From Desulfobacterales bacterium (GTDB lineage: Bacteria > Desulfobacterota > Syntrophobacteria > B119-G9), in assembly GCA_026983715.1 (NCBI GenBank), contig JALSTM010000228.1:1-36595 (forward strand): DNA of 36,595 nt, read 5' to 3'. A program made the translations under genes and the position numbers. Below the pieces are notes generated by a model. The model did no database searches, was not told the DNA's origin, and saw only the letters and a program-made list of their open reading frames with translations. Below are positions 29,084 to 31,225 of the stretch, in pieces. Position 1 is the stretch's first letter. Every line of letters begins with the position of its first letter.

Positions 29084-29770
29084 TTACGCTTCGGTATCTT
29101 TTTTGCTAGAAAGCAAGATTTCTATCAAGCCCCGGTGATAACGCCGGGAGACTGAAGGAGAAAACAGACGCGAATAAGCGTACCAGTTACCGGATAGTTC
29201 GATAAGGTTAAGCAAAAATAGGCGATCCTCTGCCTCTTTGCTCTCGAGGGTTTTGATAGATGAGCATACGTAAGCGTCACATAGTAATTTTCCATGTTTC
29301 CCATAGTTACGCAAATCCACTCCGTTATTGCTCTTGATCTTTGGATGAAGAAGACATCCCACCGATTTCCCGTCGCTATCGAGAAAAGCAACAAAGGGGC
29401 AGCTCTCATCGTTTTCCTCAATTCCCTTTATATAGCTTTTGTAATTGAGCAAATCGTCTTTTTCTTGTACTAAGCACTCAAAAATGCATCTTCTTCTGTG
29501 GTATTTTGTCGCAAGAGCATCTTTAGCCGTGGTGAAATCATCGCAGCAGCCTGCACAGTGTCTGTTTAAATCCAGGTGACAGAGGAACCTTAGGTTGCTG
29601 GAGTGTAAAATCTTGTTTCTTAGGGTGATAGGTATTGTTGAGTCCTGAAAATCGACAGTAGATCCGAAAAGGCACTTTACGCACCAATTGATTTCTTCCT
29701 CGCTGGCAGAAGAAATAGCTCCCAGGATTTCTCTAATCTTCCTCAATTTTCTAGGTTTCGAGCAGATCAT
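29084..29770 (-). CDS. Cys-rich hypothetical protein (putative metal/Fe-S binding), 228 aa
   Basis: CVKCLFG, CHLDLNRHCAGCCDDF, CPFVAFLDSDGKSVGCLLHP, CDAYVC; starts 17 nt after the upstream gene on the minus strand. Confidence 0.75.
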   Translation of the reverse strand: MICSKPRKLRKIREILGAISSASEEEINWCVKCLFGSTVDFQDSTIPITLRNKILHSSNLRFLCHLDLNRHCAGCCDDFTTAKDALATKYHRRRCIFECLVQEKDDLLNYKSYIKGIEENDESCPFVAFLDSDGKSVGCLLHPKIKSNNGVDLRNYGKHGKLLCDAYVCSSIKTLESKEAEDRLFLLNLIELSGNWYAYSRLFSPSVSRRYHRGLIEILLSSKKDTEA

Positions 29771-29787
29771 TAAACGTATTCATCCGT

Positions 29788-30042
29788 CTATTCAACCTTG
29801 ATCTTTGTCGCCTTCTTTCTCCCTGGAGTCTTTGTTTTCTTTTTTTCAAGGGAGGAAATTTTTGCGTCGATGAGCGACTTAAAGGCCTGTAAGAGCTCTA
29901 TTTGAGCGTTGTAAAGATGAGTACAGAATTCGCTATGTTTTAGCTTGCTTTCCTTGACTGTTTTCATCAGGAAGCAAAACGGACAATACACATCCTGGTT
30001 TGTTTCTTCCTGTGTATTCATGTTTTCTGTTCTTTTACTCAT
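29788..30042 (-). CDS. Small CPFC-motif hypothetical protein with Lys-rich tail, 84 aa
   Basis: YCPFCFLMKTVKESKLKHSEFCTHLYNAQIELLQAFKSLIDAKISSLEKKKTKTPGRKKATKIKVE; start overlaps the ArsA-like stop by 8 nt. Confidence 0.75.
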   Translation of the reverse strand: MSKRTENMNTQEETNQDVYCPFCFLMKTVKESKLKHSEFCTHLYNAQIELLQAFKSLIDAKISSLEKKKTKTPGRKKATKIKVE

Positions 30043-31225
30043 GGTTCCCTCCGAATTCTACTGTCAAATACTCCTTTTCAAGTTTTGCCCTCCTGGGTTC
30101 CAATCCCACCAGAGTGCGTGGTAAGATAATGTTTCTTTTAAAGTTTCCAATTCTTATGATAAGTTCTTCTCCTATCTTGGCCAGTTCAACGTCTTCCTTT
30201 TCTACAAAGGGGAGGTGTAGTCTAATAATATGCTTGTGATTCTCACATGCAAATTCATATGGCCGATGTTCATAAAAAATTTTGCAGGGATCCCTCCCTT
30301 GGTAGATGTGTTCGCCGAGTTCCAGTAACTTGTCAATACCGCAAACTTCGGTCTGATAAAAAGGAGCTGTCAGAATCGGAATCGGGTGGAAGTATGAGTT
30401 TACAAGTTCCATGTAATCCTTCTGGGACTTGTGCCACTTGTTTAAGAATCGATTTTCAGGGTCATCTTCAAAAATTCGGTTCAATATGATAGCGTCTATA
30501 GAAAGCTGGTGAAGGGAAAAGAACATGAACGCCCTTTGCGTTTCCCTCAAAACCATCTTTTCTGCATTGGTTACAAGCCTAACCGTAGTCATTTTGGGAT
30601 CATTCAATATCTGGTCTACGCCCCGCAATCGGTCAAAAAGTCTTTCAATGGACTCGAAGTATTCATCTTCAGGCAAGGGTATGTCAGACATTCTCCTGGC
30701 AACAGGCCTCATCATTCGTGCAATCCTGCGTTCAAGAGAAAAAACCTTTTTCATGTACCATTCCAAGGCCTTGGGAAGGCTCACAAACCTGATAGATTCG
30801 GCAGTTGGGGCGCAGTCCAGGATGACAACGTCATATTTTTTCTGCCTGGCATACCTGTTTATGTAGAGCAGTGCGCTTATCTCTTCCATCCCCGGGAGAA
30901 TTGCAAGTTCTTCTGCCAGAATGTCTTCTATCCCGGAGGTGTTCAAAAGAACGGATATGTATTTGTGTACCTCTCCCCAGTTTTTTTCAATCTCTTCGTA
31001 TATGTCCAGTTCCTGGATCCAAAGCTCATCGTAAACCTTGATAGGTTGTCCCCTGTTCTTGTCCATTAAAGATTTATCTAGGTCAAAAGCATCACTCAAG
31101 CTGTGGGCGGGGTCAAGGGACAGAACCAGAGTCTTCAAGCCGCTCCGGGCTATGGTAAGGCCCGTGGCCGCTGCAACGCTCGTTTTACCTACTCCTCCTT
31201 TTCCTGCATACAACAGTAACCGCAT
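30035..31225 (-). CDS. ArsA/GET3-family ATPase with HSP20-like C-terminal domain
   Basis: MRLLLYAGKGGVGKTSVAAATGLTIARSGLKTLVLSLDPAHSLSDAF; DCAPTAESIRF; C-terminal IRLHLPFVEKEDVELAKIGEELIIRIGNFKRNIILPRTLVGLEPRRAKLEKEYLTVEFG. Confidence 0.93.
   Translation of the reverse strand: MRLLLYAGKGGVGKTSVAAATGLTIARSGLKTLVLSLDPAHSLSDAFDLDKSLMDKNRGQPIKVYDELWIQELDIYEEIEKNWGEVHKYISVLLNTSGIEDILAEELAILPGMEEISALLYINRYARQKKYDVVILDCAPTAESIRFVSLPKALEWYMKKVFSLERRIARMMRPVARRMSDIPLPEDEYFESIERLFDRLRGVDQILNDPKMTTVRLVTNAEKMVLRETQRAFMFFSLHQLSIDAIILNRIFEDDPENRFLNKWHKSQKDYMELVNSYFHPIPILTAPFYQTEVCGIDKLLELGEHIYQGRDPCKIFYEHRPYEFACENHKHIIRLHLPFVEKEDVELAKIGEELIIRIGNFKRNIILPRTLVGLEPRRAKLEKEYLTVEFGGNHE

Follow-up and report, generated by a model that had tools for sequence, protein, structure and literature searches.

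A Get3/ArsA-family ATPase with a C-terminal alpha-crystallin domain is co-encoded with a small protein of a new family in Desulfobacterota-type bacteria and Acidobacteriota

ATPases that combine a single Get3/ArsA domain with a C-terminal alpha-crystallin domain (aCD) have been described as Get3d from phototrophs (cyanobacteria) and plants, in which the aCD takes the Get4 site (PMC10248533). According to the passages of this 2023 structural study covered here, the role of the aCD was unclear and partners were still to be found. Neither these passages nor those searched in a 2010 survey of ArsA operons mention a small partner of an aCD-bearing ATPase, and no partner for this class was found in the open literature searched. 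Get3/TRC40 proteins come with Get4/Get5 or Get1/Get2. Small heat-shock proteins (sHSPs) use IxI tails to contact another alpha-crystallin domain in its beta4-beta8 groove (PMC4823740). Here, we describe a bacterial locus in which an aCD-bearing ATPase is encoded next to a small protein.

The window, meaning the whole stretch of 36,595 nucleotides analysed from contig JALSTM010000228.1 of a Desulfobacterales bacterium (assembly GCA_026983715.1), holds ribosomal-protein, ffh/trmD, rnhB, yraN and redox genes; none of its genes was recognised as an ars gene, in agreement with a first-pass annotation of the same DNA. The three open reading frames singled out by that annotation are real and correctly placed (Table 1). 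All lie on the minus strand, with an overlap of 8 nt between the ATPase gene and the gene for the 84-aa protein and a gap of 17 nt between the latter and the gene for a 228-aa protein. The ATPase frame has an ATG start at 31,225, and an alternative GTG extension to 31,327 is also present. All 34 relatives examined (window included) carry a Shine-Dalgarno-like site at most 20 nt from the start of the small gene, mostly within the final codons of the ATPase gene. This arrangement supports a translational coupling of the ATPase and 84-aa genes and agrees with the co-expression proposed earlier from the tight spacing.

Table 1. Features of the locus, in coordinates of the window.
Feature	Position	Strand	Basis
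396-aa ATPase of the Get3/ArsA family, ending in an alpha-crystallin (ArsA_HSP20) domain	30035..31225	-	PF02374, PF17886, TIGR00345; AF2 model
Deviant Walker A GKGGVGKT, ATPase residues 8-15	31181..31204	-	Read from translation
Alpha-crystallin/ArsA_HSP20 domain (aCD), ATPase residues 331-391	30053..30235	-	PF17886; mostly beta in AF2 model
Shine-Dalgarno GGAGGG of 84-aa gene, within final ATPase codons	30047..30052	-	SD-like site in 34/34 small genes
84-aa small protein gene (new family; DUF5304 = apparent actinobacterial relative)	29788..30042	-	Alignment A1, co-occurrence, DUF5304 link
CPFC motif, 84-aa protein residues 20-23	29974..29985	-	Alignment A1; C-P nearly invariant, second Cys variable
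C-terminal tail K-I-K-V-E of 84-aa protein (instance of the conserved terminal K[IV]x[IV]E)	29791..29805	-	Tail pattern in 29/30 members
228-aa Cys-rich protein; separate multi-copy family, neighbour rather than conserved module part	29084..29770	-	Profile matches, locus comparison

Profile searches bore out the earlier reading of the first gene as a GKGGVGKT-type ATPase with an HSP20-like C-terminal domain. The protein scored 318.7 bits against PF02374 (cut-off 24.3) and 246.5 bits against TIGR00345 (GET3_arsA_TRC40; cut-off 135), and residues 331-391 scored 77.6 bits against PF17886 (ArsA_HSP20). It thus consists of one ATPase domain followed by an aCD, which is the architecture of NosGet3d (All4481) and AtGet3d. 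The CXXC zinc motif is absent from the 396-aa sequence, as it is from Get3d. With Get3/TRC40 the protein shares the ATPase fold and the catalytic motifs, but it differs from them in lacking CXXC and in possessing the aCD. For structure prediction with AF2, the window ATPase and the 84-aa protein were joined by a computational tether (CATG=H; no frameshift is claimed) and modelled as a monomer from a shallow, essentially unpaired alignment of unmodified homologues. The model of this fusion was confident both in the ATPase part and in the beta-sandwich domain. Its best PDB matches were archaeal TRC40/Get3 (3zq6, 3ug6), and it also matched NosGet3d (8egk) and AtGet3d (8elf) over their full length including the C-terminal domain (about 390-425 columns). 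In sequence the ATPase is nearer to archaeal Get3 than to NosGet3d. As it reached 152.3 bits against the NosAFP equivalog NF050088, whose cut-off is 325, it is an aCD-Get3 relative and we do not file it as Get3d proper.

The 84-aa protein has a single helix, then a basic linker, and ends in a fixed tail, K[IV]x[IV]E. An alignment of 30 members (A1) exhibits a CPxC motif, the helix HxxNARIExLxAxRSLIDxRIxxLEK, the basic linker and a C-terminal TKIxVE. The tail pattern is terminal in 29 of the 30 members when defined loosely and in 25 when defined strictly, against a background of 1.9% (loose) and 0.24% (strict) among the ends of 823 ORFs from the loci retrieved. It is retained in otherwise diverged members (LARVEIK in L065, QKVDID in L053, RKVAVE in L125); the small ORF adjoining the ATPase at L129 lacks it. 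Within the CPFC motif, C20-P21 is the sole nearly invariant part. The second cysteine is missing in many members (CPVG, CPLQ, CPIG), and the proteins of L053 and L059 have no cysteine at all and keep the helix and the tail. Calling the 84-aa protein Cys-rich, as had been done, was therefore an overstatement. A Zn(Cys)4 site built on CPxC was rejected as a general feature given the variable second cysteine, and so was a zinc-finger or PaaD-like identity, for which all matches fell below the Pfam cut-offs. The small-protein sequences show no apparent transmembrane segment. In this branch the family has no Pfam entry; DUF5304 was touched by two of the 30 members, with a best E-value of 0.055 that did not pass the cut-off. 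A PDB sequence search with the A1 profile returned only matches with E>0.08, with no Get4, Get5, Get1 or Get2 chain among them.

Among 12 ATPase loci taken from other genomes, a small ORF followed the ATPase in 11, the exception being a locus from Nitrospinae (L048). We then consider 198 genomes of the same phylum, in which aCD-ATPases were told from ordinary HSP20s by PF17886 scores and ORF lengths, and the small protein was detected with the A1 profile. The aCD-ATPase was found in 33 genomes, the small protein in 30 and both in 29 (Fisher p=2.3e-29, without correction for common descent among the genomes). Ordinary ArsA-type ATPases occur widely in these genomes, and the small protein was absent from 64 of the 65 that carry only such other ATPases; the one exception, G096, is 67% complete and has an A1 match and a truncated ATPase fragment. 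Among the four genomes with the ATPase only, three belong to one genus and carry a diverged ORF (L065-L067) that is longer and ends in the same tail, and in the fourth (G059) the contig ends within the aCD. The two genes are linked in 27 of the 29 shared genomes, usually with an overlap of a few nucleotides, and their order is inverted at L059. In the remaining two genomes, G060 and G131, both are present on different contigs, which argues against mere operon hitch-hiking. In three genomes that share a genus (L115-L117) the small gene stands alone, with the ATPase absent within about 1.5 kb. The flanks of 12 pair loci, with genes named by eye, varied in content, and a holB/PSP1/metG-like or tatD-like context was confined to close relatives; a conserved third gene around the pair was rejected on these grounds.

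The association extends to Acidobacteriota, where the ATPase was found in 20 of 149 genomes, the small protein in 16 and both in 15 (p=1.6e-15, likewise uncorrected for ancestry), with the small gene either up- or downstream. At one actinomycete locus, from Nonomuraea (Actinomycetota, L148), an aCD-ATPase gene is directly followed by that of a DUF5304 (PF17230) protein that contains CPVC and ends in EHIDLN. This protein is matched by the A1 profile at 8e-5, and in hhalign the CPxC and the helix line up. The actinomycete protein has in common with the small family the CPxC, the H..A..E.. helix and a C terminus of the IxL type, but the linker is longer in DUF5304, and neither the window protein nor the other A1 members reach the DUF5304 cut-off. 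Homology to DUF5304 through P0004 is supported but remote, and the A1 proteins may represent a new branch of DUF5304 or form a superfamily with it. DUF5304 found no mention in the open-access literature searched. At the same Nonomuraea locus (L148:2496-4683) a Polyketide_cyc2/lipid-transport (SRPBCC-type) gene, the aCD-ATPase gene and the DUF5304 gene stand in a row, which hints at lipid handling.

Several aCD-ATPases have no detectable partner, namely those of Nitrospinae L048, Fusobacterium L149, the acidobacterial L134 and L135, and L133, so the aCD does not strictly depend on the small protein. In Fusobacterium vincentii (L149:2495-4848) two aCD-ATPase genes without a small partner overlap in tandem, and their products perhaps form a heterodimer. 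At L134 and L135 a fragment of a chlorophyll synthase (BchG/ChlG-like) gene lies immediately upstream of the ATPase gene; unlike the window ATPase, these two ATPases come without the small protein, and they fit the phototroph Get3d branch. In a quick tree, the Fusobacterium and chlorophyll-linked ATPases branch outside most partner-bearing sequences and L048 falls inside; several of these sequences are on long branches of uncertain position.

We favour the reading, at a probability of roughly 0.55, that the ATPase and the 84-aa protein make up a two-component chaperone/targeting module in which the small protein is a dedicated co-factor (adaptor or regulator). As to the physical binding of the pair, its docking site and its clients, we infer the following scheme. 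The ATPase, as suggested by its family, would act as a Get3-type dimer, going through an ATP-dependent cycle and shielding lipid or hydrophobic segments. The small protein, co-translated with it, would bind it and, as adaptor or regulator, act on client loading or ATPase cycling, in place of the partners of Get4/Get1 type that serve the eukaryotic pathway. The likeliest contact would be the K[IV]x[IV]E tail, inserted in the manner of an sHSP IxI/V tail into the beta4/beta8 groove of the aCD, which would leave the amphipathic helix and the CP motif available for contacts with the ATPase or a client. By analogy with sHSPs, the IxV-like tail might thus dock on the aCD of the ATPase: in both cases an [IV]x[IV] stands at the extreme C terminus and the partner bears an aCD, but here the tail and the aCD reside on separate, unrelated proteins. 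In the tethered AF2 fusion (a monomer from a shallow, essentially unpaired alignment) the helix of the small protein was moderately confident (pLDDT 57-80) and the tail was disordered (pLDDT <50, residues 466-478), so that this model does not support docking. A more far-reaching version holds that a bacterial GET-like pathway has its missing partner in the small family, which would regulate or load the Get3-type ATPase through its IxV tail in the aCD and would be conserved across Desulfobacterota-type bacteria, Acidobacteriota and actinomycetes (DUF5304); this version is tentative, and we regard it as rather less probable than not.

Alternatively, the small protein could be a client matured by the ATPase, for example a protein that binds a metal or cofactor through CPxC. 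Get3-fold ATPases do have relatives that deliver metals and cofactors, and the CP motif is nearly invariant, with a second cysteine in many members. We nevertheless consider this unlikely, given that the second cysteine is often lost and that the cysteine-free members retain helix and tail; moreover, the lack of an apparent transmembrane segment argues against a tail-anchored client, and so tight a tie to one ATPase subclass would presumably be rare for a client. The two genes could also be merely co-transcribed neighbours that serve one pathway without physical contact, as the gene overlap and the Shine-Dalgarno-like sites in the 3' end of the ATPase gene point to tight co-expression. This explanation, too, has little probability in our view, since co-occurrence survives inversion of the gene order (L059, L119, L121) as well as the loss of linkage in G060 and G131, and spans phyla in which the flanking genes are unrelated.

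The first-pass annotation had gone further and proposed an undescribed small module of three proteins, with the 228-aa protein as a conserved member. An undescribed small module around the ATPase is supported, since the 84-aa gene accompanies it in two phyla and, as a DUF5304 relative, at one actinomycete locus. Co-occurrence in relatives, the lack of which the annotation had named as refuting, was found for the 84-aa gene and failed for the 228-aa gene. The latter does adjoin the pair in the window, and also in L010, from the same genus, but outside this genus no relatives were seen beside the ATPase among the ATPase loci examined. Instead, relatives occur in 34 of 60 related genomes, distant and elsewhere in the genome, and are multi-copy in this phylum; a closer homologue is encoded in G028 (62% complete), in which no ATPase was found. 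A three-protein module is therefore highly improbable, and because its adjacency to the ATPase is confined to this genus, the 228-aa protein is a neighbour belonging to a separate family. That family has eight invariant cysteines in a 26-row alignment (A5; SCAxCC...CEFVGFLD..RVGCLLHP..GxDLR..YG..LC...FC) and may be of Fe-S or metal-binding type. The protein had no Pfam or PDB match, and its predicted structure (pLDDT 71) gave no significant Foldseek match. Finally, despite its PF02374 membership, we rejected the identity of the ATPase as the arsenical-pump ArsA of arsenite export on score (80.6 bits against an ArsA equivalog cut-off of 650), domain number (a single ATPase domain, with an aCD) and gene context.

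As far as this could be tested, the type of ATPase is known, and the small-protein family and its link to the ATPase are undescribed. Owing to its almost constant co-encoding with the aCD-ATPase, the small protein is the best candidate so far for the partner that has been missing for ATPases of this class. The small protein tracks the aCD-bearing subclass and not its cousins, which makes it a concrete and testable partner candidate, and DUF5304 gains a possible function through its link to the aCD-ATPase.
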